A stretch of 55,245 nucleotides of DNA from a bacterium (lineage in GTDB: Bacteria > Actinomycetota > Acidimicrobiia > Acidimicrobiales > Bin134), in the NCBI GenBank assembly GCA_028819295.1, contig JAPPMA010000044.1, positions 1 through 55,245 of the forward strand, given 5' to 3'. The translations under genes and the position numbers were made by a program. Shown here piece after piece: positions 23,845-47,592 of this stretch. Every line of letters starts with the position of its first letter. Position 1 is the first letter of the stretch. The notes under the pieces were generated by a model that had not been told where the DNA came from, ran no database searches, and worked only from the letters and a program-made list of their open reading frames with translations.

Positions 23845-25125
23845 ATGGGCAAATATTTGAAGAAATATTGGAAAGCGAACTACGAGGGGGCGAGCCGCCG
23901 TGAGCGCATGGGGGGACAGTATCAGCCGTATTTGCCCGACACGCTCTGTGATTGGCGAGGAGCGATCAGCCTTGAAGCGATGGCTGAGTCGAGAAGAGCC
24001 GAGGAGGGTATCAATGCCCTGAACAACGACTCGACAGTCCAGAAGACCATCGCGGGGCTCGGGCGTTTCCTGCTGCGAGTCGAATCGGTTGGGTCGTCTC
24101 AAATTGAGGGGCTCAGCGTGTCATCTCGGCGATTGGCAAAAGCCGAGGCCGCACTGAAGTTGGGAGTGTCAGTATCGGACTCCACGGCTTCGGAGGTGCT
24201 GGGGAATATCGAGGCGATGGAGTTCGCCCTCCGTCTGGCAGAAAAGCCCTCGCGCCTCGAAGTCGATGATCTGTGCCAGATCCACCAGATCCTCATGGAT
24301 CGTTCGCCTACGCCTCAGATTGGAGGCGTAATTCGCGATGTCCAAAATTGGATCGGCGGCAACGATTACAACCCTTGTGACGCGTCGTTCGTCCCGCCGC
24401 CGCCCGAATATGTCGTCCCGCTCATGGATGACTTGATCGACTATTTGGACACCGATCACCACGCACCCCTGATCCAAGCGGCACTGGCCCACGCCCAGTT
24501 CGAGGTCATCCACCCGTTTGCCGATGGCAATGGGAGGACTGGACGCGCTCTCATCCACATAGCACTGGCTCGTCGAGGGCTGACCGCAGCGTTCACCCCT
24601 CCGGTCAGCTTGGTGTTGGCCACATGGTCCAAGTCGTACGTGGCAGGCCTCAAGGGGTTCTGCGTTGACACTGAACCGGACGGTCTTGAACGCGTGGAGG
24701 GGGCCAGCCAGTGGATTGAGATGTTCTCCTCAGCGGTGATTCGAGCTAGTGATGATGTCCGCGTCTACGCCGGCAGAGTGGCCGAACTGGAGGCAGAATG
24801 GAGGAGCAAGGTAGGAAAGCTGCGGTCAGACTCTTCGGCGAACCTGCTGTTGTCAATGTTGGCCGGAACCCCGATTGTTACCGTCGAGCAGGCCAGTGAG
24901 CTCTTGGGTCGCTCGCAGATGGCGGTAGGACAGGCGGTCAACCAATTGCTGGAGGCTGGAGTTCTGCGCCAATTCAACATAGGCAAGCAGCGATACCGGG
25001 TTTTTGAGGCTATCGGCGCGTTCGACCTGTTCACCAGCCTTGAGCGGTCTTTGGCCAGCCCGACCGGCGACACGGCAACGGCGCAGCCCAGCCGTCCAGC
25101 GCCTGACCGTCCCTCCCGAAGGTGA
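23845..25125 (+). CDS. Fic-family AMP transferase with N-terminal inhibitory motif and C-terminal winged helix
   Basis: 426 aa. The Fic catalytic motif [12 protein letters not shown] (residues 223-234) is perfect, with H223 as general base. An inhibitory helix motif S-x3-E-G (S84-E88-G89 in SSQIEG) places it in the class with N-terminal self-inhibition. After the Fic core, residues about 345-400 ([20 protein letters not shown]) form a winged-helix-like DNA-binding unit. Such Fic-HTH proteins AMPylate a target and are often autoregulated, which fits the repeat array upstream. The gene is monocistronic; the target is unknown. Confidence 0.93.
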
Positions 25126-27943: not shown

Positions 27944-28924
27944 ATGACCGGGCTCATCGATGTCCACGCCCACATCGTGCTGGAGGGCACGATGGGTGCC
28001 GCTGGGCCGTGCGGTCCCGAGATCGGCGCCCACGACGACGGCACCCCCTGGTTCCGGGTGGGCGGCTACCAGCTCGACGGGGTGGCCTACCGGGGATCGC
28101 TGTTCATCGATCTGGACATGCGCCTGGAGGCCATGGACGCCCAGGGCATCTCGATGCAGGCCCTGTCGCCCAACCCCCTCACCTACCTCCACTTCATCGA
28201 GCCCCAGTTGGCCGTCGACTTCTGCCGCCGCCACAACGACGCCCTGGCCGCCGCGGTGGCTGCCCACCCCGACCGCTTCGTCGGCTTGGCTGCGCTGCCC
28301 ATGCAAGACGTCGACGCGGCCTGCGCCGAGCTTCAGCGGGCGGTGCAGGAGCTGGGCCTGCTGGCCGGCTACACCGGCACCGATTTCGGCACCCCGCTGG
28401 ACGACCCGGCCCTCGACCAACTCTGGTCGCTGTGTGCTGAGTTGGATGTGCCCCACTTCTTGCACCCCACCCAGTCGGGCATCGACGGCCCGCTGCTCGA
28501 CCCCCGGCTGCGCCGCTGGGACCTCGACCTGGTGCTGGAGTACTCCTACGAGGAGACGGTTGCGGTGGCCGCCCTGGTGTTCGGCGGGGTCACCGAGCGC
28601 CACCCCGACCTCGACTTGTGCCTGTCCCACGGCGGCGGCACCACGCCGGTGGTCTTGTCCAAGCTCCGCAAGCTGGCCGAGCGCCGCCCCGCCGCCCCCG
28701 AATGGATCAAAGAACCAGGGGCGTTCGACCGGGCTCTCAGCCGCCTGTGGTTCGACTGCCACATCACCGGCGCCGCCGAACTGAGCCTCGCCCTCGAGCA
28801 ATACGGCACCGACCGTCTCGTCTACGGCACCAACTTCGGCGGCTGGGACCGAGGCACCGGCCCCGACATGGCCGACATAGCCGAAACCCTCAACGCCAAC
28901 GCCACCCGCCTGCTCCGGCTCTAG
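27944..28924 (+). CDS. Amidohydrolase_2 (ACMSD-like) metal hydrolase/decarboxylase
   Basis: 326 aa TIM barrel. The metal-binding H-x-H is in LIDVHAHIVLEG. Further ligands appear in HPTQSG (H), LSHGGGT (H) and YGTNFGGWD, where the last Asp normally completes the site but here the family-typical G-T/S-D is G-T-N. ACMSD-family members decarboxylate or hydrolyse cyclic acids. It is downstream of the CMD-like gene in one catabolic set. The stop codon overlaps the convergent NTF2-like stop through the palindrome CTAG. Confidence 0.85.
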   Translation: MTGLIDVHAHIVLEGTMGAAGPCGPEIGAHDDGTPWFRVGGYQLDGVAYRGSLFIDLDMRLEAMDAQGISMQALSPNPLTYLHFIEPQLAVDFCRRHNDALAAAVAAHPDRFVGLAALPMQDVDAACAELQRAVQELGLLAGYTGTDFGTPLDDPALDQLWSLCAELDVPHFLHPTQSGIDGPLLDPRLRRWDLDLVLEYSYEETVAVAALVFGGVTERHPDLDLCLSHGGGTTPVVLSKLRKLAERRPAAPEWIKEPGAFDRALSRLWFDCHITGAAELSLALEQYGTDRLVYGTNFGGWDRGTGPDMADIAETLNANATRLLRL

Positions 28925-31699: not shown

Positions 31700-33022
31700 A
31701 TGTCTGAGCCGATGCCCATCGTGATCACCGGGGGAACGGTTATCGACGGCACCGGCGCCCCGCCCCAGCCCAACACGGCAGTGCTGTTGGAAGGCGACCG
31801 GATTGTGGCCGTTGGCCCCGATGCTGGGGCTGTTCAGTCGAACGCCACCGTCATCGATGCCGCCGGATGCACAGTGATGCCTGGCCTGATCGACGCCCAC
31901 GTCCACTGCACGTTCGACGATGTGCAGTCCAACGACGAGCTGTTCTTCCACCGCGACCACACCCTGGCCGCGCTCATCGCCGCCCAGAACCTCCAAAAGC
32001 TGCTCCTGGCCGGGGTGACCGGGTTCTGCGATCCCGACACCTTGTTCTCCATGGGCCCGTCGCTGCGCGACGCGGTGGACGCCGGCGTGGTGGAGGGCCC
32101 CCGCATGGCCACCGGAGTGCAGGCGCTGGTCACCTCGGTGGGCGGAACCGCCGGGCGGCTCATCCCCGACACCGGGGTGGTGGGGTACGCCCAGGTGGTG
32201 ACCACCGTCGACGAGATGATCCAAATGACCCGGCGCCACATCAAGTACGGGGCCGACTGGATCAAGATCCACGCCACCGGTTCGATCCCCCGCCACCAGG
32301 GCGAGCTCTTGGCCTGGAAGCCCGAGGAGCTGAAGGCGGTTTGCGACACCGCCCACGAGTTAGAGACACCGGTGATGGCCCATGCCCGCTCGGCCGACAG
32401 CACCCGGGCCTGCGCCGAGGCCGGTGTAGATATCATCCTCCACGCCTCGTTCATGGACGATGCCGGCCTGGAGGCGGTGATCGACGCTGGGGCCGCCCTC
32501 ATGCCCACCTTCACCTTCCTGGCCAACCTGGCCGACTACGGCCACCTGGTGGGCGCCGGGGCGGGCATGCAGGACGTGTTCCGGGGCGAGATCGAGGCCA
32601 CCGCCAAGATGATGGCCAAGGCCCACGACGCCGGAGTGCCGCTGCTGTGCGGATCGGAGTCGGGATTCGCCCTCACCCCCTACGGCCACTGGCATGCCCG
32701 GGAGATGGAGGTGCTGGTGGAATCGGTGGGGCTGTCGCCGCTTCAGGCCATTTCCTGCGCCACCGCCAACGGGGCCATCGCCCTGCGAATGGAGGGCAAG
32801 GTGGGCACCCTGGCCCCCGGCATGGCCGCCGATGTGCTGGTGGTCAGCGGCGACCCAGCCGCCGATGTCACCGTTTTGGCCGATCGGTCCAACCTCCGCC
32901 AGGTGATCAGCCGGGGCCAATCGGTCGACCTAGACCGCCCCTGGCCCTCCCGGGCGCCCATCCCCGGCGAGAAGGTGGCCAACTGGGCCGCCAGCTCCTT
33001 GACCAGCGATCTCATCGGGTAG
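31700..33022 (+). CDS. Amidohydrolase-family (imidazolonepropionase/prolidase-like) protein
   Basis: 440 aa. The N-terminal beta sandwich (GGTVIDGTG) and metal-site DAHVH are clear. WIKIHATG provides the bridging-Lys region, and MAHARS and ILHASF supply histidines. At the usual G-T-D (catalytic Asp) the protein has G-S-E with E320 in CGSESGFALTPYG. The closing strand is ALRMEGKVGTLAPGMAADVLVV. It likely hydrolyses a cyclic amide or peptide-like bond. It is translated after copy 2 of the unknown family. Confidence 0.85.
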   Translation: MSEPMPIVITGGTVIDGTGAPPQPNTAVLLEGDRIVAVGPDAGAVQSNATVIDAAGCTVMPGLIDAHVHCTFDDVQSNDELFFHRDHTLAALIAAQNLQKLLLAGVTGFCDPDTLFSMGPSLRDAVDAGVVEGPRMATGVQALVTSVGGTAGRLIPDTGVVGYAQVVTTVDEMIQMTRRHIKYGADWIKIHATGSIPRHQGELLAWKPEELKAVCDTAHELETPVMAHARSADSTRACAEAGVDIILHASFMDDAGLEAVIDAGAALMPTFTFLANLADYGHLVGAGAGMQDVFRGEIEATAKMMAKAHDAGVPLLCGSESGFALTPYGHWHAREMEVLVESVGLSPLQAISCATANGAIALRMEGKVGTLAPGMAADVLVVSGDPAADVTVLADRSNLRQVISRGQSVDLDRPWPSRAPIPGEKVANWAASSLTSDLIG

Positions 33023-35316: not shown

Positions 35317-35556
35317 GGGCAGAGCCCGGTCGGGGTTGAAACCGGCGGCGTCGTCACCGAACACTGTCTGGTCCCGGTTCACCGACAGCAGATCCAGCGT
35401 GATCCGGTCGCCCTTGGCGATATGCACCCCGCTGGACAGGTCGATGTCGGCCAGCGCCCAGCGCATCCCGGTGGGGCTGGAGGGCTGGAGCCGGATGGTC
35501 TCGTGGGTGCACTTCTGCACAAAGAGCCGGTCTTCGCGCACCCGGTCACGGTGATT
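35317..35556 (-). pseudogene. Cytochrome P450 fragment
   Basis: About 80 codons (start of homology near HRDRV, 35553). It aligns with residues about 239-315 of the intact P450 at 46399: CTHETIRLQPSSP against CVHESMRLHPASP (E-x-x-R helix), and SVNRDQTVFGDDAAGFNP against SANRDTEVFGADADSFNP. The N-terminal two thirds and the haem-binding cysteine loop are absent, so it cannot be functional. Confidence 0.75.
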
Positions 35557-35655
35557 TCTGCCATCTCCGGTATTTTGCCATAGCGAAATGTCTGTTAGTC
35601 TCCCGAACTTGTGTACGTCCGATCAGTGCACATCCAACGATCTGGAGGGGTATCC

Positions 35656-37029
35656 ATGTCCAAGCTCTTGAAAGTTCTGGCGCTGCTGTTCGCAGTGGCC
35701 CTGGTTGCTGCCGCATGCGGCAACGACGATGACGAGGGGGGGGATGCAGCCCCGGCGCCGGTGGCCACTGAAGCACCCGCTCCAGCGGCCGATGACATGC
35801 CGGAAGAGGACATGGCCGATGACATGCCGGAAGAGGACATGGCCGATGACATGCCAGAGGAGGACATGGCCACGGGCTGCGGTTACGCCACCGAGGGCGA
35901 CATGCGAGGCATCGACAAGGAGAACGGGGTTGTCACCATTGGCTCCTCCCAGCCGTTTACTGGTCGGGCCGCCGTTGCCGGTGAGGGCCTGATTGCTGGC
36001 ATCATCATCGCGGTCGAAGAGGTCAACGCCAATGGCGGCATCGACGGTTGCACCTTTGAGCTGGTTTGGGAAGACGACCGTTTTGAGATCGAGCAGATGG
36101 TCACCAACGTCCGCAAGATGATCGAGCAGGACAACGTTTGGGCGTTCGTGGGCACCGCGGGCTCGCAGGCCATCCCTTCCACCTATCCCGACATCGAGGC
36201 CGCTGGCACCCCGCTGTGGGGTCCGGTGTCACCGGCTGATCAGGACATCCAAGAGGTGTACCTGACCAACCCGACCCGTACCGAGCAGGGTCGCATCTGC
36301 ATTGACCACTTTGCTGAGCAAGGAGCCACAAAGGTGGCGGCCATCGGCCAGGACAACGAACTGGGCGAGGAGGCGTTCAACGCCATCGATATGCAGGCTC
36401 CGGTTCACGGCATGGAGATCGTGGCCAAGGAAGAGGTCGAGGTGCTCTCCGATGCAGTGGCGCCTGCTGTCTTGTCAGTTATCGACTCAGGTGCCGATGC
36501 AGTGCTCACCGCGCTCGACGGAACCCAGAACGGTCTGGTGCTCGACCAGTTCCACGAGGCAGGCTTCGATCCATTGGTTTGCTCCGACCAGGGTTCGGCT
36601 GGGGCCGGTGGCCAGACCACGGTTGGTCTCGCCGTTCCAGAGGCGGCTGACGGCTATCTGGGTGCCCTTCAGGGTGCTCTACCCGATTCCGACATGGATT
36701 TCGTGCAGCACTGGCTGGGAATGTGGGAAGCCTACGACGGTCCCGGCGCGGAGAGCCTGGCTCCCAACTTCAGCCTTCAGACCTACTCGATCTCCAGGGC
36801 GTTCTTCGAGCTGTTCGACCGGCTGGAAGGCGACTACTCCTACGAGAACTTCCACGCGACTGCCGAGGCAATGGCGGACGATCCCATCTTGATTCCGGCC
36901 ATGCCGGTGTTGGCCTGTGGGCCGCTTCCCGGCGGCCACGGCTGCGCCTCTGGCGCCGGTATTGCCGAGTACGACGCCGAGACCATGACTTGGGCTCAGG
37001 TTCGGGAGTTCCTCCCCCCGGTGGGCTAA
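35656..37029 (+). CDS. ABC transporter substrate-binding lipoprotein (branched-chain amino acid/amide type)
   Basis: 457 aa. Signal peptide with lipobox LVAAAC and lipidated C21, then a 60-residue acidic linker with three DDMPEEDMA repeats, then a type I periplasmic-binding fold (IGSSQPFTGRAAVAGEG; GGIDGCTFELVWEDD). The segment IPSTYPDIEAAGTPLWGPVS is typical of LivJ-like receptors. ATG 35656 is set by GGAGGGG five bases upstream; an in-frame start at 35611 would precede it. It begins a five-gene import operon. The ligand could be an amino acid, amide or aromatic acid, and the catabolic surroundings favour the latter (inference). Confidence 0.92.
   Translation: MSKLLKVLALLFAVALVAAACGNDDDEGGDAAPAPVATEAPAPAADDMPEEDMADDMPEEDMADDMPEEDMATGCGYATEGDMRGIDKENGVVTIGSSQPFTGRAAVAGEGLIAGIIIAVEEVNANGGIDGCTFELVWEDDRFEIEQMVTNVRKMIEQDNVWAFVGTAGSQAIPSTYPDIEAAGTPLWGPVSPADQDIQEVYLTNPTRTEQGRICIDHFAEQGATKVAAIGQDNELGEEAFNAIDMQAPVHGMEIVAKEEVEVLSDAVAPAVLSVIDSGADAVLTALDGTQNGLVLDQFHEAGFDPLVCSDQGSAGAGGQTTVGLAVPEAADGYLGALQGALPDSDMDFVQHWLGMWEAYDGPGAESLAPNFSLQTYSISRAFFELFDRLEGDYSYENFHATAEAMADDPILIPAMPVLACGPLPGGHGCASGAGIAEYDAETMTWAQVREFLPPVG
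35791..35871 (+). repeat. Three 27-bp tandem repeats in the lipoprotein linker
   Basis: Units at 35791-35817, 35818-35844 and 35845-35871 each encode DDMPEEDMA. Units 1 and 2 are identical; unit 3 differs by a synonymous change. Slippage there would change tether length without a frameshift. Confidence 0.9.
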
Positions 37030-37036
37030 TTCGCTA

Positions 37037-37074
37037 GTTGGTCCGGGATCAGCAATGGCTGGTCCCGGACCGAC
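37037..37074 (+). terminator. Strong intercistronic stem-loop between the binding protein and permease genes
   Basis: 37037-37053 pairs with 37058-37074 (17 bp, two G-U wobbles, loop of four; core GGTCCGGGA / TCCCGGACC). No run of T follows, so it is more likely a 3'-end stabiliser or partial attenuator that raises binding-protein over permease expression than a full terminator. The permease ribosome-binding site begins 9 bases later. Confidence 0.75.
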
Positions 37075-37094
37075 CACTTCTAGGAGCACAGCAG

Positions 37095-38192
37095 GTGGAT
37101 CAACTCCTCCAGCAGATTGTGGCCGGACTGGAGTCTGGGTCGAGCTATAGCCTGATCGGCCTGGCCATCGTGGTCATCATGAAGTCCACCGATGTGCCCA
37201 ACTTCGCCATGGCCGAGATGGGGCTGGTAGCCGCCTTCATGGCCTGGTTCTTGTCCGGAGATCCTGCACTGGGTGGAGTCGGGTGGCCGTTCTGGCTGGC
37301 CATAGTCTTGGCGTTGGCCTTTGCCGCGGTGTTCGGAGCCATCACCCAGTTCTTGCTGGTCCGCCCCCTGACGGGATTGTCCAACCAGCCACTGGCGGTT
37401 TGTGCCTCCGTTGGATTGGGGTACGCCAGTGTGTTCTTCCTCAACAAAGAGGGCTTGCCCACCTTCTTCGACTGGTTTCCGGTCACCGATGATGGGTTCC
37501 CGTTGTGGGTTGCAACCATCATGGCCGTTGTCACCGTGGCGCTCACTTATTTGATGATTCGCTACTGGGTGAAACCGCTGTCGAAGGTGGATCACTTCCC
37601 GCTGTTGTTGCTGACCATTGGATTGAATTTCGCGCTGGGTTCCGTAATCGAAAACCTCTGGGGATCCACCCCCAAGCGATTCGACGCTCCCTGGTCGGGT
37701 GAGACCTTCGATCTGGGGAATACCCGCATTGGATGGGATCAAGTCGTCACCATCGCGGTGGGAATCGCCATTGCCATCGCGATGGCATTGTTCTTCTGGT
37801 CCAAGTGGGGGGTCCGGATGAGGGCCATCGCCGAGGACGGCCACACCGCTCGGCTGCTGGGCATCAACGCCGGACGGGTCTCGCTCATTGCCTGGGCCAT
37901 CGGAACGTTTGTCGCTGGTGCGGCCATGATCCTAAACACCAGTTCTACGGTGTTGGAGTTGGGCAGCGCCGAGGGGCTCATCCTCAAGGGGTTTATCGCC
38001 GCCGTCCTCGGCGGGTTCACGTCGCTCGGCGGTACATTTGCCGGTGGCCTGCTCATTGGTGTGGGCGAGGCTCTGGCCGGAGGACAGATCAGCACCAGCT
38101 TGCAGCCCACCATCGCCCTGCTGGTGGTGGTAGTGGTGCTCTTGGTGGCTCCGGGCGGATTCAGCCGCACCGCTCGGACCCGCGAGGTGTAG
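37095..38192 (+). CDS. Branched-chain-amino-acid-type ABC permease, LivH family
   Basis: 365 aa, eight or more hydrophobic helices. The N-terminal LLQQIVAGLESGSSYSLIGL and MRAIAEDGHTARLLGINAGR (the EAA-like cytoplasmic loop that contacts the ATPase) are hallmarks. It has an unusually long periplasmic/cytoplasmic insertion around residues 115-200. GTG 37095 with TAGGAGCA upstream is preferred over 37038, which falls inside the hairpin. It pairs with the LivM-like gene three bases downstream. Confidence 0.92.
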   Translation: MDQLLQQIVAGLESGSSYSLIGLAIVVIMKSTDVPNFAMAEMGLVAAFMAWFLSGDPALGGVGWPFWLAIVLALAFAAVFGAITQFLLVRPLTGLSNQPLAVCASVGLGYASVFFLNKEGLPTFFDWFPVTDDGFPLWVATIMAVVTVALTYLMIRYWVKPLSKVDHFPLLLLTIGLNFALGSVIENLWGSTPKRFDAPWSGETFDLGNTRIGWDQVVTIAVGIAIAIAMALFFWSKWGVRMRAIAEDGHTARLLGINAGRVSLIAWAIGTFVAGAAMILNTSSTVLELGSAEGLILKGFIAAVLGGFTSLGGTFAGGLLIGVGEALAGGQISTSLQPTIALLVVVVVLLVAPGGFSRTARTREV

Positions 38193-38195
38193 CCG

Positions 38196-39293
38196 ATGTC
38201 TGACCAAGCCTTGCCGTCGCTGTATCCGCAGAAGAGTTCCCTGAGAAAGGCGGTGCCCGAATGGGCCTCCACCTTCGCCGTGTTCCTCTTCTTGGCCTTC
38301 TTGCCCTGGATGCACATCTTCGGCTGGACCGATATTTTCGACAGCAGCAACAACTTCGGTCGTGGCAACCTCGCGTTCGTCTTTGCGTTCGCAATCGCCG
38401 GGGTGGGGTTCAATCTGCTGGTGGGGTATTCGGGCACGTTGGGCCTTGCCATAGCCGGCCTCTTCGCTCTGGGGGCCTATGGCACTGCGGTGCTGTCGGC
38501 TCCCAGCGATGCCCGGGAAGCACTGGCCGGATACGACTGGCCGTTTTTCATAGCCCTGCCAGTCATATGCATTGCCGCGGCCATTATCGGCTTCCTGGTG
38601 GGCTTTCCTGCCGCCCGACTGAAGGGCTTCTTCTTGGCCATCGCCACATTGGCCTTAGGCGAACTGATCGTCACCATCATTCGGCTTGACGAAAAGGTGT
38701 GGGACGGCCTCAAGACCAATGGAGGCACCGGCAAGCAGGTTCCGCAGTTCCGTGTACCGGGGCTCGACCGCATCCTCAGCGTCTACATGCTGGCTTTGGG
38801 CGCATTGTTCATAACGATGGTCGCGTATGTCGTACTCACCAACCGCAGGCTGGGACGCACACTGAAAGCAGTCCGAGACATCGACATCGCCACCGGCCCG
38901 CTGGGGATCTCTTCCACCTACTACAAGCTGCTGGCCTTTGGGATCTCTGCCTTTGCTGCTGCGCTGGCCGGCGCCATGTGGGCCCAGAACAGCTCATTTG
39001 CCAATCCCTCCGCGTTTAGGACCCGCCTGCTGGTCTTCTTGCTGGTGGTGCTGATCGTCGGCGGTGTGAGCCGCAAGTGGGGCCCGCTCATCGGAGCGGT
39101 GTTCTTCGTGTTCTTGCGTCAGAAGCTCCAGGACACCCAGAAGCTGTTGTTCTTGATCTTGGGTATCACCCTCATCCTTGCCGTGCTGATTCTGCCTTTC
39201 GGGATAGCTGCCCTTCCAAAGCAACTCCGCGATAGCCGATGGGTGAAAGACCTCCAGCGAAGGCTGGAGACGTTGACGGACTTCTCGCTATGA
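38196..39293 (+). CDS. Branched-chain-amino-acid-type ABC permease, LivM family
   Basis: 365 aa. About ten hydrophobic segments. LLVGYSGTLGLAIAGLFALGAY and GFPAARLKGFFLAIATLALGE are characteristic LivM strings, and the coupling loop is LGRTLKAVRDIDIATGPLGI. Full length. It overlaps the ATPase gene downstream by four bases (ATGA at 39290-39293). Confidence 0.92.
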   Translation: MSDQALPSLYPQKSSLRKAVPEWASTFAVFLFLAFLPWMHIFGWTDIFDSSNNFGRGNLAFVFAFAIAGVGFNLLVGYSGTLGLAIAGLFALGAYGTAVLSAPSDAREALAGYDWPFFIALPVICIAAAIIGFLVGFPAARLKGFFLAIATLALGELIVTIIRLDEKVWDGLKTNGGTGKQVPQFRVPGLDRILSVYMLALGALFITMVAYVVLTNRRLGRTLKAVRDIDIATGPLGISSTYYKLLAFGISAFAAALAGAMWAQNSSFANPSAFRTRLLVFLLVVLIVGGVSRKWGPLIGAVFFVFLRQKLQDTQKLLFLILGITLILAVLILPFGIAALPKQLRDSRWVKDLQRRLETLTDFSL

Positions 39294-40237
39294 GCGTCGT
39301 CGAAACTGCTCCGTCGGGTGCCAGCCCCGCCGATGCCGTTGCTTCGCTCGCCGTCGAAGACCTTCATGTGGCCTTTGGCGGAAACCGAGTGCTGATAGGG
39401 GTTGACCTCAACTTCACCCCCGGTTTCAACGGGCTCATCGGACCCAATGGGGCGGGTAAGACCACCGTCTTCAACGTGATCTCCGGCTATGTTCGCAGCA
39501 CTCAGGGTGGCGTTCGGCTGCACGGCGAGGATCTGCTGCATATGTCCCGCACCCAGCGGGTGAAGTCGGGCATTGGGCGCACTTTCCAGGCTCCGAGGCT
39601 GATTCTCGACGCCACCGTGATGGAGAACACCCTGTTGGGGCGACACCATTTGTTCCGATGGGGGCACTTCGCCGAGCTGTTGCTATTGCCTCAGCAACGA
39701 CGGGAGGAGACCGAGGCCCGGCAGATCTGCATGGAAATGCTTGATCGCTTCGGTTTGGCCGAAGCGGCCCATGAGGAGGCCGGCGCCCTGTCACTGGGTT
39801 CGCAGAAGTTGGTGGAGGTGGCTCGCGCCTTGGTGGCCAATCCAACTGTTGTGCTGCTCGATGAGCCCGCCGCCGGGTTGGGCGCCGACGATGTGACCGT
39901 GCTGCTGCGGGGATTGCGGGAGATCCAAGCCGAGCGCAACCTGTGTGTGATCATCATCGAGCACGACCTGCAACTGGTGACCAGCCTGTGCCCCAAGATC
40001 AGCGTGCTGCACTTTGGCGAGATCATCTCCGAGGGCAGCCCCGAGCACGTCACCTCCGACCCTGCGGTTATCGAGGCCTATTTGGGCCACGGTTTCGAGG
40101 CCGAAGGAGGCGGCGAGATACACGAGGTGGAGGGGCCGCTGTCGGAGCACCACCACATCGACCACGTGGAAGAAGAGGGCACCCTGGAAGAAGTGTGGAT
40201 CGACGACGACGGCACTGAGCAGGAAGAGCCGTCCTGA
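39290..40237 (+). CDS. Branched-chain-amino-acid-type ABC ATPase, LivG family
   Basis: 315 aa. Walker A GPNGAGKTT, Walker B VVLLDEPAAGL and the switch His in IIIEHDLQLV are intact. The ABC signature is LSLGSQKLVE rather than LSxGQQ. A C-terminal tail of about 45 residues is very acidic and His-rich (EHHHIDHVEEEG), beyond the normal LivG end. The start at 39290 overlaps the livM stop; a longer frame from 39239 is not credible. Confidence 0.93.
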   Translation: MSVVETAPSGASPADAVASLAVEDLHVAFGGNRVLIGVDLNFTPGFNGLIGPNGAGKTTVFNVISGYVRSTQGGVRLHGEDLLHMSRTQRVKSGIGRTFQAPRLILDATVMENTLLGRHHLFRWGHFAELLLLPQQRREETEARQICMEMLDRFGLAEAAHEEAGALSLGSQKLVEVARALVANPTVVLLDEPAAGLGADDVTVLLRGLREIQAERNLCVIIIEHDLQLVTSLCPKISVLHFGEIISEGSPEHVTSDPAVIEAYLGHGFEAEGGGEIHEVEGPLSEHHHIDHVEEEGTLEEVWIDDDGTEQEEPS

Positions 40238-40947
40238 TGCTGCTCGAGATCAACGACCTGGTTTCGGGCTACGGCCGCTTGGAGGTGCTGCACGGAGTCT
40301 CGCTTTCGGTGGAAGAAGGCGAGATCGTGTCGGTGCTGGGGGCCAACGGTGCGGGCAAGACCACCCTGCTGCGGGCCATCTCCGGAGTGCTGGACACTTG
40401 GTCGGGATCGGTGGTGCTCGACGGGGAGAACCTGGGCAGCCTGGCCATCGAGCGCCGGGCCATGCGTGGGCTCGGCCACCTGCCCGAGGGGCGGGGGATC
40501 TTTCAGAACCTGTCGGTGAAGGAGAACCTGGAACTGGGCTTGGGCCTGCGATCCGACGGTGCAGCCGCCATCCGCCGGGATCGTGATCGCCTGTTTGACC
40601 TGCTGCCCGCGCTGGCCGAGAAGATTGGCGAGCAGGCGTCCTCGTTGTCGGGAGGCCAGCAGCAGATGCTGGCGCTGGCCCGGGCCATGATCACCCGGCC
40701 CAAGCTGCTGATGATCGACGAGTTGTCCTTCGGCCTAGCCCCCAACCTGGTGGACCAGTTGTTCGAGCTGGTGGTGGATCTGCGGGATGAAGGCGGCACC
40801 ACCTTCCTGCTGGTGGAGCAGAACGCAGGGGTGTTGGAGGTATCCGACCGCACCTACGTGCTGCGCACCGGCAACAACGACATCAGCGGGCCCTCGGCCG
40901 AGCTGCGGGCCTCCCACGACCTGGTCCGCTCGTATTTGGGCCACTGA
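40237..40947 (+). CDS. Branched-chain-amino-acid-type ABC ATPase, LivF family
   Basis: 236 aa. Walker A GANGAGKTT, LivF-typical GLGHLPEGRGIFQNLSVKEN, signature LSGGQQQMLALARAM, Walker B LLMIDELSFGLAP (Glu then Leu in place of the usual Pro) and LLVEQNAGVLEV. Its first base is the last base of the LivG stop (TGATG). It completes the importer. Confidence 0.94.
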   Translation: MLLEINDLVSGYGRLEVLHGVSLSVEEGEIVSVLGANGAGKTTLLRAISGVLDTWSGSVVLDGENLGSLAIERRAMRGLGHLPEGRGIFQNLSVKENLELGLGLRSDGAAAIRRDRDRLFDLLPALAEKIGEQASSLSGGQQQMLALARAMITRPKLLMIDELSFGLAPNLVDQLFELVVDLRDEGGTTFLLVEQNAGVLEVSDRTYVLRTGNNDISGPSAELRASHDLVRSYLGH

Positions 40948-42272: not shown

Positions 42273-42353
42273 CTACCAGCGAATAATGGCCTCGGGATTG
42301 CCGGTGTGAACTGCGTCGAGGTGGTCTTTGACTGTGGTGAGCGGGTCACGCAT
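42273..42353 (-). pseudogene. 26-codon stub resembling the start of an NTF2-like gene
   Basis: ATG 42353 overlaps the SDR stop by eight bases, as a following operon gene would. The peptide begins MRDPLTTVKDHLDAVHTGN and looks like the first helix of a SnoaL/NTF2-like protein, then meets TAG at 42273. No continuation in any frame was seen beyond, so this is probably a truncated gene; a genuine small peptide cannot be excluded. Confidence 0.45.
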
Positions 42354-43107
42354 TGGTGATGCCGAGGCTGAGGCCCCCGTCCACTGTGAGCACCGAGCCC
42401 GTGGCCCATTCGGCGCCGATCAGGTACTCGAACGCCTCGGCAATCTCGGTAACGGTGCCGATGCGGCCCAGGGCGTGAGCCGGCCCCAGTCCCTCCAAGC
42501 GGGCTTTGGCCTCGCCGTCGCCCATCAGGCCGGCCCGCTGGTTCAATTCGGTGAACACCGCGCCCGGCCGCACGCAGCCCACCCGAACCCCCTGAGGGCC
42601 CAGCTCGGCGGCCAGCACCCCGGTGAGCGCCTCCAGCGCGCCCTTGGTGGCGGCGTAGGGGGCCACACCGGGGAAGGCCCGCTGGGTGTGAACCGACCCC
42701 ACGAACAGCACGCATCCCTGTCGCTCCCGCAGGTGGGGCAGCGCCGCGCCCACCAGCATCATTCCCGCCACCACGTTGGTGTGGAACACATCGAGAAGGG
42801 CCTGCTCGTTCAGTTCATCCACCGGGCCGCGGTACATGTTCCCCGCGTTGCTTATCAGGGCATCGAGACCGCCTCCGTGCTCCACCGCGGCCTCGATCAT
42901 CGCCGTGCGGTCGGCGTCCACCGTCACGTCCCCGGCCACGGCCCGACACCGATTCCCGAGACGAGCGGCTAGGCCCTCCACCCGGTCTGGGCGACGACCG
43001 GTGATTGTCACCTGCGCCCCCCGCTCGGCCAAGTGCTCGGCCGCCCCCGCGCCAATGCCCGAACCGCCCCCGGTGATCAAGATGGACATCTCGTCGATGG
43101 GCTTCAT
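42346..43107 (-). CDS. SDR-family oxidoreductase
   Basis: 253 aa. TGGGSGIG, an Arg-rich TGRRPDR at the NADP-binding position, SNAG in place of NNAG, S in VGSVHTQ and YAATK. VRPGAVFTELN follows. A complete, functional-looking enzyme. Its stop overlaps a truncated NTF2-like stub, so it was once the first gene of a pair. Region 42156-42272 beyond holds no feature I can support. Confidence 0.9.
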   Translation of the reverse strand: MKPIDEMSILITGGGSGIGAGAAEHLAERGAQVTITGRRPDRVEGLAARLGNRCRAVAGDVTVDADRTAMIEAAVEHGGGLDALISNAGNMYRGPVDELNEQALLDVFHTNVVAGMMLVGAALPHLRERQGCVLFVGSVHTQRAFPGVAPYAATKGALEALTGVLAAELGPQGVRVGCVRPGAVFTELNQRAGLMGDGEAKARLEGLGPAHALGRIGTVTEIAEAFEYLIGAEWATGSVLTVDGGLSLGITNA

Positions 43108-43160: not shown

Positions 43161-44630
43161 CTAAAAATCCATACCAAATTCTGCGTATCGACAAAGTCGG
43201 CTCTGATCTTCGTCGTTGCCAATTTGAATGAGGTCGAAGACAGGTCTACCTGGTCCGACCAAAACTTTCAATGCCCTGTCTCCTGCGCTTCCCTTGGTGG
43301 GTGCATCAGTGGTAAGGAGAATCAATGGGAAATCGAGTTCGCTTTCTTTCAGAACAGCAGCTTTCCCCAGTGCTTTCCAGAGGGTATCGGTACGTCGCAA
43401 TCCTGATCTTGATGATGTGAACGCTCCAGAAACGTCAAATGCCCAAGTCTGACCAGTTTGATCTCCAGCAAGAAAGTTGAGTTCTAGCCCGATGTGAGTG
43501 AATTTCTGATCTGCCTTGATCCCGTCAAAACCGCAATTCTCAAGCAGCATTTTTGCTAGGACTTTTGCCCGCTGTCCTTCGCGCACTGCTCTTGCCTGGA
43601 AGTCTTCCCCGGGATCCGCTGTCGCAACTGCCGGTAGGCGCACGCGTAGTGGTTTGTCTTCAAAGTTATCGATTGTGTCTAAGCGTAGTTTCTCTTCCAG
43701 TATCCTTTGCTCTGCTTGAAGCAAATAGTCTTCGTCTGTCTCGAAACCAAGATAATGTCGTCCCGTTCGCAGTGCGGCAATTGCAGTTGTGCCGGATCCC
43801 ATGAATGGGTCAAGAATGATATCGCCTTCAAATGTATAAAGATCAACCAAGCGCTTCGGTAGCTCCACAGGAAATGGTGCAGGGTGCCCAACCCGCGTTG
43901 CGCTCTCTGGAGGGATATCCCAAAGATCAGTTGTTGCCTCCAGGAACTCATCCCTAGATATCGTTGAGACTGATGGTCGGCTTTGGGCATGGCGCTCCTC
44001 TGGTTTCAGCGCTCGATCGAAACGACCCTTGCTGGCGAGGACGATTCTCTCAGTAACGTCCCGGAGCACTGGGTTGGCGGGGCTCTGGAAAGTACCCCAA
44101 GCACACGAACCGCCGGCTGCTTTCCCTTTCCACCAGATTGCTTCTCCACGCAGGAGCAGGCCCAGATCTTCGAATATGCGTATCACATCGCTGGCCAATG
44201 ACCTATAGGGTCGCCTTCCAAGATTGGCGACGTTGACTGCGATCCTCCCTCCAGGCTCCAACACCTCTTTGCATTCGCTGAAGACCTGTCGAAGCAGTTC
44301 CAAGTACTCGAAGTAGGTTGCGGGGATCCCGTCGGCGCCGAGTTCCTCCTCGTACTCCTTGCCCGCGAAGTACGGGGGTGAAGTCACGACAAGAGCCACA
44401 GAATTGTCCTCTAGAGGAGGTCGTATCTGGCGTGCGTCTTGACAGTAGATCTTGTCGAGGTTCTCCCCGGGGGGACGATTGATGGTCGTGTCCTGTGACA
44501 CTTCGGGGGCGACGAACCGCTCATAGAAGGCTGATGCATCGTGACTCTCACGTCTGGACGACCCAAATCGAGCTGTTTCAGTGGAAGGTCGTCGGGGGTG
44601 CCCACGTCCACTGGAATGCGACTCGGCCAT
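43161..44630 (-). CDS. Site-specific DNA methyltransferase with an additional C-terminal domain
   Basis: 489 aa from ATG 44630. Beta-class amino-methyltransferase (N4-cytosine or N6-adenine): catalytic TSPPY at residues 83-87 precedes the SAM motif DPFMGSGTT at 274-282, and YLGFETDEDY follows. Residues about 355-489 are not part of the methyltransferase: GLELNFLAGD, WAFDVSGAF and LRRTDTLWKALGKAAVL suggest an alpha/beta domain possibly related to PD-(D/E)xK nucleases, though the catalytic Lys is not evident. No separate restriction gene is adjacent. Base composition is visibly more AT-rich than the neighbours, pointing to transfer. Confidence 0.85.
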   Translation of the reverse strand: MAESHSSGRGHPRRPSTETARFGSSRRESHDASAFYERFVAPEVSQDTTINRPPGENLDKIYCQDARQIRPPLEDNSVALVVTSPPYFAGKEYEEELGADGIPATYFEYLELLRQVFSECKEVLEPGGRIAVNVANLGRRPYRSLASDVIRIFEDLGLLLRGEAIWWKGKAAGGSCAWGTFQSPANPVLRDVTERIVLASKGRFDRALKPEERHAQSRPSVSTISRDEFLEATTDLWDIPPESATRVGHPAPFPVELPKRLVDLYTFEGDIILDPFMGSGTTAIAALRTGRHYLGFETDEDYLLQAEQRILEEKLRLDTIDNFEDKPLRVRLPAVATADPGEDFQARAVREGQRAKVLAKMLLENCGFDGIKADQKFTHIGLELNFLAGDQTGQTWAFDVSGAFTSSRSGLRRTDTLWKALGKAAVLKESELDFPLILLTTDAPTKGSAGDRALKVLVGPGRPVFDLIQIGNDEDQSRLCRYAEFGMDF

Positions 44631-44778
44631 CAACCCAGCATATCCAGCAGAGCGACATCGTCGGTGGACTGGGCGTCTGGCCCCATAGCCGGCGCCGCAC
44701 AATCCGTCAGGCCGGTTTGCACCCTTGCGGATGGGGACGGCTCCGGCCATTTCTGCCCCAGACCGCTATGGTCATGCC

Positions 44779-44994
44779 ATGGCCTACCGGGTGGAGATCG
44801 ACCAGGATGAGTGCATGAGCTCGGGGAGGTGCGTGGCCGACTATCCCGCGGCGTTCGCGTTCGACGACGATGAGCTGGCCACTGTGCTGCCCACCGCGGG
44901 GAACCTCACCGACCAACAGCTCCTCCGGGCCGCCCGCAACTGCCCCTCCCGGGCCATTCAGGCATTCGACGACAACGGCAACCTGCTGGAGTAG
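44779..44994 (+). CDS. 3Fe-4S ferredoxin of the P450-partner type
   Basis: 71 aa. Three cysteines only (C12, C18, C55) in DECMSSGRC and NCPSRAI, the C-x5-C...C-P pattern of single-cluster [3Fe-4S] ferredoxins that feed actinobacterial P450s. The acidic DDDELATV loop follows the family. ATG 44779 gives the standard start. The P450 at 46399 is the obvious partner, though a MazEF-like pair and an SDR lie between; no ferredoxin reductase is in the window. Confidence 0.92.
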   Translation: MAYRVEIDQDECMSSGRCVADYPAAFAFDDDELATVLPTAGNLTDQQLLRAARNCPSRAIQAFDDNGNLLE

Positions 44995-45049: not shown

Positions 45050-45259
45050 GTGGGTGGCACGCCAACTTCAGAGAGGGTGAGTGCTTACCGGGAACGGATG
45101 AGAGAGCAGGGTCTACGTCTCATTCAGGTCTGGGTTCCCGACGTGCGGGATCCTGACTTTTCGTCTGAAGCCCACCAACAGTCCCTCTCCGTCGCATCCA
45201 GCTCACAATCTGCCGACGACCAAGAGTTCATCGATACCATCAGCGTTTCTGTTGAATGA
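45050..45259 (+). CDS. MazE-like antitoxin (DUF3018 type)
   Basis: 69 aa. RVSAYRERMREQGLRLIQVWVPD and the C-terminal EAHQQSLSVA and DDQEFIDTIS are characteristic of DUF3018 'antitoxin MazE family' proteins. GTG 45050 is chosen because a perfect AAAGGAGG lies four bases upstream; GTG 45026 is an alternative that would fit a leaderless transcript. The stop overlaps the toxin start (ATGA). Confidence 0.85.
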   Translation: MGGTPTSERVSAYRERMREQGLRLIQVWVPDVRDPDFSSEAHQQSLSVASSSQSADDQEFIDTISVSVE

Positions 45260-45588
45260 AGCGCGCGGAGATATGGACCGCAGCAGGGGGCGGCGGTTAT
45301 GCAGGTAAGCCGAGGCCAGTGGTAGTCATCCAAGATGATCGCTTTGACGCCACGAACTCGGTCACGGTGTGTGCATTCACAACAGATCCCACCGAAGCCC
45401 CCCTAATCCGACTTGCGGTGGTACCAGACCCTGCCAACGGCCTGCGTGAGCGAAGCAGCCTGATGGTCGACAAGATCACAACAGTTCGCCGAGAGACCCT
45501 GGGCGAGAAGATCGGGGAACTGGCTCACCAAGACGTAACCCGCCTAGAACGAGCCGTGATGATCTTCTTCGGACTTGCGGGCGGCTGA
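45256..45588 (+). CDS. MazF/PemK-family endoribonuclease toxin
   Basis: 110 aa. The MazF barrel is clear: KRAEIWTAAGGGGYAGKPRPVVV at the start (split at residue about 14 by the variable loop), DRFDATNSVTVCAFTTD, and VDKITTVRRETLGEKIGEL near the C-terminus. These proteins cut mRNA or tRNA at short sequences. It is co-translated with the DUF3018 antitoxin. Confidence 0.9.
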   Translation: MKRAEIWTAAGGGGYAGKPRPVVVIQDDRFDATNSVTVCAFTTDPTEAPLIRLAVVPDPANGLRERSSLMVDKITTVRRETLGEKIGELAHQDVTRLERAVMIFFGLAGG

Positions 45589-45603
45589 CTAGGGTTGGCG
45601 CTC

Positions 45604-46377
45604 GTGACCAAATCAATGATTGTGACGGGGGCCGGACACGGCATCGGCGCCGAGATAGCCCGGCAGGCAGCCGCCGCCGGCTACCGGGTGGGGGTGCTGG
45701 ACATCAACGGCGAGGCCGCCGAGCAGATTGCGGAGTCTCTCCCCGATGCAGCGCCCCTGGTGGCATCTAGCACCGACTCCAGTGCCGTTGAATCCGCGCT
45801 GTATGCCTTCGGCACCCCGGATGCGCTGGTCAACAACGCGGGCATTGTGCGGTTCACCCCGCTGGTCGACCACTCGGAGGACGACTGGCGGGCAGTGGTG
45901 GATGTGAACCTCACCGGCCCCTTCGTGTGCGGTCGAGCGGTGGCCCGCCGGCTCATTGCTGAGGATCGCCAAGGGTCGATCGTCAACATCGCATCCATAA
46001 ACGGCATCGCTCCCGGCCCCAATTCCGGGGCGTATAGCCCGACCAAGGCCGCCGTAATCCAGCTCACCCGGCAGATGGCCATCGAATGGGGCTCAGCCGG
46101 CATCCGGGTCAACTCGGTGGCCCCCGGCATCATCGACGACGGCATGTCGGCCCCCGTTCTGGCCGACCCCGAAGTGCGGGCCACCCGCTCGGAACGCACC
46201 CCCAGCCGGCGGCTGGGCACCGCGGCCGACATTGCCAAGGCCGTGATGTGGCTGTGCTCGGAAGACGCCGAATACGTCAACGGTCACAATCTGGTGGTGG
46301 ACGGCGGCGTGGTTTCGACCGTGCTGGCCGGAATGCCCCGCCCCGCGTCCATCGACGGTATCGACGAAGACAACTGA
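45604..46377 (+). CDS. SDR-family oxidoreductase
   Basis: 257 aa. TGAGHGIG, Asp-type NAD(H) site in VLDINGEA, NNAG, S in NIASING, YSPTK. GTG 45604 is the probable start (TTG 45595 and ATG 45613 possible). It begins the P450/thiolase cluster, 21 bases before the P450 gene; an alcohol produced by the P450 would be a natural substrate (inference). Confidence 0.9.
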   Translation: MTKSMIVTGAGHGIGAEIARQAAAAGYRVGVLDINGEAAEQIAESLPDAAPLVASSTDSSAVESALYAFGTPDALVNNAGIVRFTPLVDHSEDDWRAVVDVNLTGPFVCGRAVARRLIAEDRQGSIVNIASINGIAPGPNSGAYSPTKAAVIQLTRQMAIEWGSAGIRVNSVAPGIIDDGMSAPVLADPEVRATRSERTPSRRLGTAADIAKAVMWLCSEDAEYVNGHNLVVDGGVVSTVLAGMPRPASIDGIDEDN

Positions 46378-46398: not shown

Positions 46399-47592
46399 AT
46401 GGCAGAGTTCACCCTTACCCGGTTCGACGACGTTCGAGATGGCTACCGGCAGAAGGGACTAAAGCAAGCGCTGTACGACGCCGCCGGGGTGATCATGGCC
46501 GACACCCTGCTCACCCTGTGGGGAGACGATCACCGCCGACGCCGTCGGCTGGAGAATCGGCTTTTCCGCCGGGAGACGTTCGAGCACTACGAGCGTGATC
46601 TGCTGCCCATCGCGGTGGACGCAGTGCTGGACCCCGCGGCAGCCGCTGGGCAGGGCGACGTGGTGCCGTTGGCCCGGCGCATCGTGGTCAACCTCACCGC
46701 CGCCGCAGCCGGGGTGGACTACTCGGAGGGCACGGCGGAAGAGACCGATCGGCTGTACTCCTATGCGGTCAAGTTCAGCGAAGGGGCCACTGCGGTCCAC
46801 AGCACCAGAGACCCCGAGGAGTTGAAGGCGGAGGTGGCCGACGCATTGGAGCGCTGGGACGAGGAGTTCTTCGCCCCGTCGCTGGCTCGCCGCTCCGACC
46901 TCTTCGAGCGGTTCGTCGCCGGGGAAATCTCCGAGGACGACCTGCCCAAAGATGTGCTCACGGTGCTGGTCCGCAATCAGGACTCCCTGGACCTGCCCCG
47001 AGATGTGGTTCGCCGAGAGGTGGCCTTCTACATGCTGGCCGGGATGCACTCCACCGGGGCTGCTACCACGCACGCCGTCCACGGCGCGTTCGGCTGGTTC
47101 GACGACCATTCCGAAGACCGCGCCCGCATGATCGAAGATCCGGTGTTTCTCCAGCACTGCGTACACGAGTCCATGCGGCTGCATCCGGCCAGTCCGGTGG
47201 CCCGCCGGGAGGCGGTGGAGCCGGTCACCCTGCGCGACGGAACCGAGATGGCGGTGGGCGACACTGCGGTGTTCGACCTGTGGTCGGCCAACCGCGACAC
47301 CGAGGTGTTCGGGGCCGATGCCGACAGTTTCAACCCGCTCCGCTCGATTCGCGACGACGTGCCCCGCTGGGGCCACACCTTCGGCGGGGGGCGACACGCC
47401 TGTATTGGTATGGAGCTCGACGGCGGTGTGCCCGCCGATGAGAACACCGGGGCGCCCATCCTGCTGGGAACGGTGGCGCTGATCTTGCGGGGCCTGCTGG
47501 CCCGCGGTGCTCGGCGCGACCCAGAGAATCCTCCCCAGCAAGACCCCAACATCGCCCGGGTCTGGTGGGGGCAGTACCCCGTATTGTTCTGA
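46399..47592 (+). CDS. Cytochrome P450 with unusual I-helix
   Basis: 397 aa. Haem loop FGGGRHACIG (residues 328-337, ligand C335) and the E-x-x-R pair (E257, R260 in HESMR) are intact. The I-helix reads AGMHST (214-219) where nearly all P450 monooxygenases have AGxET or AGxDT, so the acid-alcohol pair that delivers protons to bound O2 is missing. It may still oxygenate by a different proton route, or act on peroxide or as an isomerase. AAGGAGGC precedes the ATG. Partner candidates: ferredoxin 44779; SDR 45604. Confidence 0.93.
   Translation: MAEFTLTRFDDVRDGYRQKGLKQALYDAAGVIMADTLLTLWGDDHRRRRRLENRLFRRETFEHYERDLLPIAVDAVLDPAAAAGQGDVVPLARRIVVNLTAAAAGVDYSEGTAEETDRLYSYAVKFSEGATAVHSTRDPEELKAEVADALERWDEEFFAPSLARRSDLFERFVAGEISEDDLPKDVLTVLVRNQDSLDLPRDVVRREVAFYMLAGMHSTGAATTHAVHGAFGWFDDHSEDRARMIEDPVFLQHCVHESMRLHPASPVARREAVEPVTLRDGTEMAVGDTAVFDLWSANRDTEVFGADADSFNPLRSIRDDVPRWGHTFGGGRHACIGMELDGGVPADENTGAPILLGTVALILRGLLARGARRDPENPPQQDPNIARVWWGQYPVLF

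Follow-up and report, generated by a model that had tools for sequence, protein, structure and literature searches.

P450-B, a cytochrome P450 encoded in the window (the whole stretch of 55,245 nucleotides that we analysed), carries histidine at the place of the I-helix acid and keeps an alcohol beside it. We put the probability at about 60% that P450-B is an active, ferredoxin-fed, O2-dependent monooxygenase of an uncharacterised family, working with a CYP51-like His217-Ser218 relay. Canonical P450s deliver protons through a relay that includes the acid of the acid-alcohol pair. That acid is regarded as well conserved and as a requirement for O2 cleavage in most P450s; one known exception, with His, is CYP51. 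Ser is able to replace Thr as the I-helix alcohol. As an example from a canonical P450, the D251N mutant of P450cam is given as 95% uncoupled (PMC9366932). For P450-B, the motif and its position in the helix, its conservation, the purifying selection and the gene neighbourhood are observed directly, and from these we infer the redox partner, the use of O2 and the relay role of His and Ser.

P450-B is an intact P450 with an altered I-helix motif

The gene and the motifs on which the analysis is based are located as follows.

46399..47592, + strand: cytochrome P450 (P450-B), a single open frame of 397 aa
47038..47055, + strand: I-helix motif AGMHST, residues 214-219 (His217 = 47047-47049, Ser218 = 47050-47052)
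47167..47178, + strand: K-helix ExxR, E257-R260, kept in 97/97 family members
47380..47409, + strand: haem loop FGGGRHACIG, residues 328-337 (Cys335 = thiolate ligand; Cys in 97/97 family members)
47419..47466, + strand: family-specific insert between haem loop and L helix, about residues 341-356 by alignment

The protein has the haem Cys loop, the ExxR motif and the fold of the P450 superfamily, and it scores 54.5 bits against Pfam p450 (PF00067), for which the cut-off is 22.8. A PHROGs search made in the same analysis gave no match. The structure model, built from 16 sequences, has a mean pLDDT of 72.4 and is weak at residues 24-42, 263-265, 311-332 and 340-345, that is, around the haem loop. 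Its best fold match (VIA-align) is a staphylococcal CYP134A1 orthologue (Z 26.8, rmsd 4.6, 340 aligned residues). Because many further P450s lie within Z 1-2 of this match, it does not mark CYP134A1 as the closest relative. The CYP134A1 (CypX) structure 3nc3, from an enzyme that acts on a cyclodipeptide, is also the best profile match of P450-B among solved structures (E 6.5e-20). However, identity in the fold alignments is only 13-15%, and the 3nc3 I helix reads AATEPA in the alignment, so Glu is kept there.

Two features of the chain are shared with its relatives. In the fold alignments P450-B starts at residue 32-50 of most of the bacterial P450 chains listed, and this short N-terminus is common to the relatives, since the open frames of several of them start only a few codons earlier. 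The relatives also carry about 10 extra residues between the haem loop and the L helix (357-368 in the P450-B model, with 340-345 at low confidence) when compared with ten other P450s aligned alongside them; the insert is only a trace in L057, the most distant row.

The initial annotation had described P450-B as lacking the I-helix acid-alcohol pair while keeping its haem loop and ExxR motif. The letters are as it gave them: residues 214-219 read AGMHST, the acid being replaced by His217 and the Thr by Ser218, and both FGGGRHACIG and E257/R260 are intact. The canonical order of Asp/Glu followed by Thr/Ser is not found in the I helix of P450-B, which has His217-Ser218. The phrase "lacking the pair" is nevertheless overstated, since Ser218 remains an alcohol and only the acid has been replaced.

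AGMHST is the true I-helix motif of P450-B, because the alignments and the model agree: it aligns opposite the AGxET/AGxDT of other P450s, and one model helix, 201-236, spans it. A check for the true motif elsewhere, by alignment and structure model, turned up none, which rules out a misalignment. Of 21 further genomes of the genus, 16 yielded an orthologue of P450-B (89-96% identity), and AGMHST was read directly in all 16. The dN/dS ratio is 0.055-0.099 in six pairwise comparisons, with the His codon unchanged in every one, and P450-B is therefore under strong purifying selection. These observations rule out a sequencing slip, drift or an accident of one genome. P450-B is thus neither a broken gene nor a single-gene oddity.

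The acid is absent from all 97 compared members of the P450-B family

P450-B belongs to an uncharacterised P450 family. In the openly accessible literature we found no title or abstract about the family, no characterised close homologue and no biochemistry for any member. In the order of the window, 55 of 347 sampled genomes match the family at E up to 1e-40, the window's own genome and genus included; named members of the genus are placed in Acidimicrobiales (NCBI). These order-wide relatives mostly show 42-53% identity, and some of the 55 genomes hold only distant relatives at 28-39%. A sample of the phylum gave matches in 6 of 396 genomes: that of the window, three more from its order and two from outside the order. 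Copies also occur in Steroidobacter, Streptantibioticus and Novosphingobium, and a 398-genome sample of the phylum of Steroidobacter gave a single match, the centre genome of the sample itself.

Variation at the relay positions was read from 97 members, that of the window included. These were obtained by thinning 172 full-length hits at 95% identity, where inclusion meant that the sequence had been fetched, that the profile was covered from position 60 or earlier to position 380 or later, and that the domain score was at least 60; the rows thus come from fetched matches rather than from every order-wide match. The search profile, A1, was built from 12 rows that all have His, and the search is consequently biased toward His-bearing relatives, although members without His were found nonetheless. 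Position 217 is His in 77 of the 97 (the others being 10 Gln, 3 Asn, 3 Phe, 2 Ser, 1 Lys and 1 Gly) and Asp or Glu in none. An alcohol is kept at position 218 in 96 of the 97, either Thr (61) or Ser (35), and the remaining member has Ala. None of the 97 lacks the haem Cys, Glu257 or Arg260.

Within the core family of 81 members, Thr218 is found in 46, and the pair at 218-219 is predominantly either Thr-Ser or Ser-Thr depending on the clade, with one Thr-Thr and one Ser-Ser. The clades come from a maximum-likelihood tree whose deep joins lie on long branches and are unsure; P450-B falls on its His-Ser-Thr side. Position 128, in the F helix, is Glu or Asp in 62 of the 77 His rows (Arg, Ala, Gln, Asn or another residue in the other 15) and in 5 of the 20 non-His rows. 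Glu128 as an obligate acid partner of His217 was not upheld, as all three rows with VGSHST have Arg there. In three stretches (L059, L141 and L143) a copy with Phe at the acid place (VGSFST) adjoins a copy of the AGAHTS type.

We also compared P450-B with the other P450s of its own genome. Twenty distinct genes passed the haem-motif filter (21 rows, with L083 and L096 taken as one gene cut twice), of which 17 have Glu or Asp at the acid place and three have His: P450-B, L077 (GGVHTT) and L081 (AGVHTT). His at this place is therefore uncommon and not unprecedented, and L077 and L081 rule out that it is unique to P450-B. L077 belongs to a different lineage from P450-B, because it is nearest to CYP125- and CYP142-type structures. 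Among the matches dropped by the filter, L071 (AGGETT) and L090 (AGHDTT) keep the acid, the I helix of L086 is unreadable, and L093 is the broken P450-A described below. Ser at the alcohol place is seen in L078 as well (AGGEST). A further P450 of this genome, L079 (C84 near 39459-39962), reads AGHEAV, with the acid kept and the alcohol changed to Ala.

P450-B lies in a recurrent gene cluster

P450-B is part of a recurrent cluster of its order, made up of P450s, short-chain dehydrogenases (SDRs), amidohydrolases and a ferredoxin; Steroidobacter and Novosphingobium share part of it. Its other members in the window are the following.

27944..28924, + strand: amidohydrolase 2 (AH2, PF04909)
31700..33022, + strand: amidohydrolase 1 (AH1, PF01979)
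35327..35546, - strand: remnant of P450-A (AGAHTS type), which is intact in sister genomes
42346..43107, - strand: short-chain dehydrogenase SDR4
44779..44994, + strand: small single-cluster Fe-S ferredoxin, the probable redox partner, about 1.4 kb upstream of P450-B
45595..46377, + strand: short-chain dehydrogenase SDR1, directly upstream of P450-B

Every cluster member is present in the window, between 27.9 and 47.6 kb, with P450-A reduced to a remnant, and OB-fold, FadD and thiolase-like genes come after the cluster. The remnant spans about 220 bp with 91% identity to a sister genome; it has an internal deletion, and its 3' part has been replaced. A separate internal loss in P450-A is seen in G005:C232. 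Since P450-A is only a remnant here, P450-B is the only intact core-family P450 found in the assembly, whose completeness is 95%. In the Novosphingobium sp. THN1 plasmid (L055), the second family P450 matches the profile in two segments that lie in different frames (positions 1-346 and 343-398), and is thus broken or mis-sequenced near its end.

Other genes lie within the cluster in this genus or elsewhere in the window. Genes resembling, by eye, a branched-chain amino-acid type ABC transporter occupy 35611-40947 (+ strand). A DNA N6/N4 methylase gene (43161-44750, - strand) and a PemK/MazF-like toxin gene (45256-45588, + strand) also sit inside the cluster, and two sister genomes (L058 and L065) have at most tens of bases at these two points. 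An AbiEii-like nucleotidyltransferase is found at 1593-2762, and a Fic-domain protein at 23845-25125.

We compared the neighbourhoods of core-family P450s from outside the genus, 26 stretches in all: eight (L024, L054, L055 and L059-L063) plus 18 (L184-L200 and L203), with two stretches each from the genomes G463 and G578. Stretches with only distant relatives (L056, L057, L064, L066, L201 and L202) were left out. Some stretches are cut off at contig edges, which lowers the counts. A homologue of AH1 at 50% identity or more is found in 18 of the 26, as is one of SDR1, with one more of the latter at 49%. AH2 is represented in 10 at the same threshold, and SDR4 in 8 at 60% or more, with one more at 54%. 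A ferredoxin homologue of at least 40% identity is present in 10 stretches and missing from 16, some of which end at contig edges. A second family P450 accompanies the first in 14, although in L200 this is a match of 157 residues only. The closest orthologue outside the genus (69%, in G463) lies on a 19.5-kb stretch, L184, that has no homologues of the ferredoxin, SDRs or amidohydrolases of the window; another P450 of G463 (stretch L203) has both SDR1 and SDR4 nearby. L197 holds just the P450, at a contig edge.

The Streptantibioticus copy adjoins a ferredoxin homologue and also non-ribosomal peptide synthetase (NRPS) and radical-SAM genes, a setting which speaks against a single pathway for the whole family. 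A molybdenum hydroxylase gene lies close to the cluster in Novosphingobium, as it does in one genome from the order of the window. As a pathway clue it was rejected as non-discriminating, since all 22 genomes of the genus that were searched have such genes. Looking up the host family name gave no lead to the substrate of P450-B.

A CYP51-like relay is the most likely reading of P450-B

In CYP51, as described in two sources, the family signature His immediately precedes the conserved I-helix Thr (PMC9519919), and the enzyme is reductase-fed and uses O2, with the opening of a His-acid salt bridge activating the proton relay (PMC7908997). P450-B likewise has a His directly before its I-helix alcohol, the position from which the CYP51 His gates proton delivery according to these sources, but the residue that follows is Ser and not Thr. 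P450-B differs from CYP51 also in its short N-terminus and in the insert after the haem loop. None of the best 60 of 511 PDB profile matches is named CYP51, and the CYP51 B-C loop signature was not seen on reading the P450-B sequence. We do not claim CYP51 membership for P450-B; the likeness would lie in the relay feature. A further point of likeness comes from the ferredoxin of the window, which had two hits among solved structures, the better being the ferredoxin part of a CYP51 fusion (PDB 6mcw, E 3.9e-6).

By analogy with CYP51, a working His-Ser relay is the most likely and the most economical reading of P450-B. Under this reading, the distal relay would consist of His217-Ser218 in place of Asp/Glu-Thr. 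His217 would take over the gating and proton-donating job of the acid, like the family His in CYP51, while Ser218 would hold the hydroperoxo intermediate. Electrons would probably come from the ferredoxin encoded at 44779-44994. P450-B would then oxidise its substrate, most likely before or after the step catalysed by the adjacent SDR1, and this reaction would be set within a cluster of P450s, SDRs and amidohydrolases.

The initial annotation had pointed out that P450s without the pair often act with peroxide, by substrate-assisted proton delivery or on special substrates. For P450-B these proposals found no support here, the His being a CYP51 signature, the motif not Arg-Pro, the haem loop canonical and a ferredoxin gene lying upstream. 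One might expect a natural peroxygenase to have lost the acid because it uses H2O2 and requires no relay for O2 cleavage. The canonical acid is indeed absent from P450-B, altered acid-alcohol pairs have been associated with higher peroxygenase activity (PMC10750395), the insert after the haem loop alters the proximal side, and 16 of the 26 stretches have no ferredoxin homologue at the 40% threshold. P450-B shares the absence of the Asp/Glu-Thr pair with CYP152 (OleT, BS-beta). However, the CYP152 peroxygenases have Arg-Pro at the acid-alcohol site and a different Cys loop, although they too can accept redox partners (PMC5818669). Arg-Pro is not found in AGMHST of P450-B, whose His-Ser is combined with the canonical FGGGRHACIG, the alcohol is almost invariant in the family, and a ferredoxin gene is found upstream of P450-B, with homologues close to the P450 in the 10 stretches noted above. 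The absence of Arg-Pro, the canonical loop and the ferredoxin gene together favour a reductase-fed enzyme, and a peroxygenase appears unlikely.

Somewhat less improbable, although still doubtful, is that a group on the substrate gives the proton, His217 serving chiefly for substrate binding or for the shape of the pocket. Exceptions to the acid-alcohol pair include P450cin and P450eryF (PMC9366932), and in OleT the acidic end of the substrate reportedly compensates for the missing pair (PMC10988616). The 20 members with Gln, Asn, Phe, Ser, Lys or Gly at position 217 are consistent with this idea. Nevertheless, a residue tuned to varied substrates would be expected to differ more than position 217 does, with His in 77 of 97, and all rows but one retain the hydroxyl next to it. 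We consider it very improbable, the least of these alternatives, that P450-B is a non-catalytic or specialised P450 (an isomerase, a dehydratase or a structural partner of a second P450) for which O2 activation is unneeded. Since a second family P450 occurs in 14 stretches (in L063, one of the three is partial), one member of such a pair could act as a helper. Against this, the haem Cys, the ExxR motif and the distal alcohol are all kept, and the copy that has decayed in the window is P450-A, not P450-B.

Against the preferred reading of a His-Ser relay stand the 20 members with another residue at position 217, which indicate that His is inessential to the fold and possibly also to catalysis. 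The F-helix acid missing from 15 His rows, the 16 stretches that show no ferredoxin homologue and the bare neighbourhood in L184 count against it as well. A broader scenario can be put forward only speculatively, and we think it more probably wrong than right by a wide measure. A separate P450 family, found in one Actinomycetota order and a few other bacteria, would have dropped the catalytic acid altogether and reached a CYP51-like His-alcohol relay independently, in combination with a short N-terminus and with an insert on the proximal side, ahead of the L helix. This might enable multi-step or carbon-carbon-cleaving oxidations like those of CYP51, in a catabolic cluster where two such P450s would act in turn.

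The family offers a second case, apparently distant in sequence from CYP51, in which most members have His and keep the alcohol. It is a natural test of whether His can generally replace the acid, and also of what His needs around itself. The analysis also flags an unassigned oxidative gene cluster that recurs in one Actinomycetota order, including sponge-associated members.
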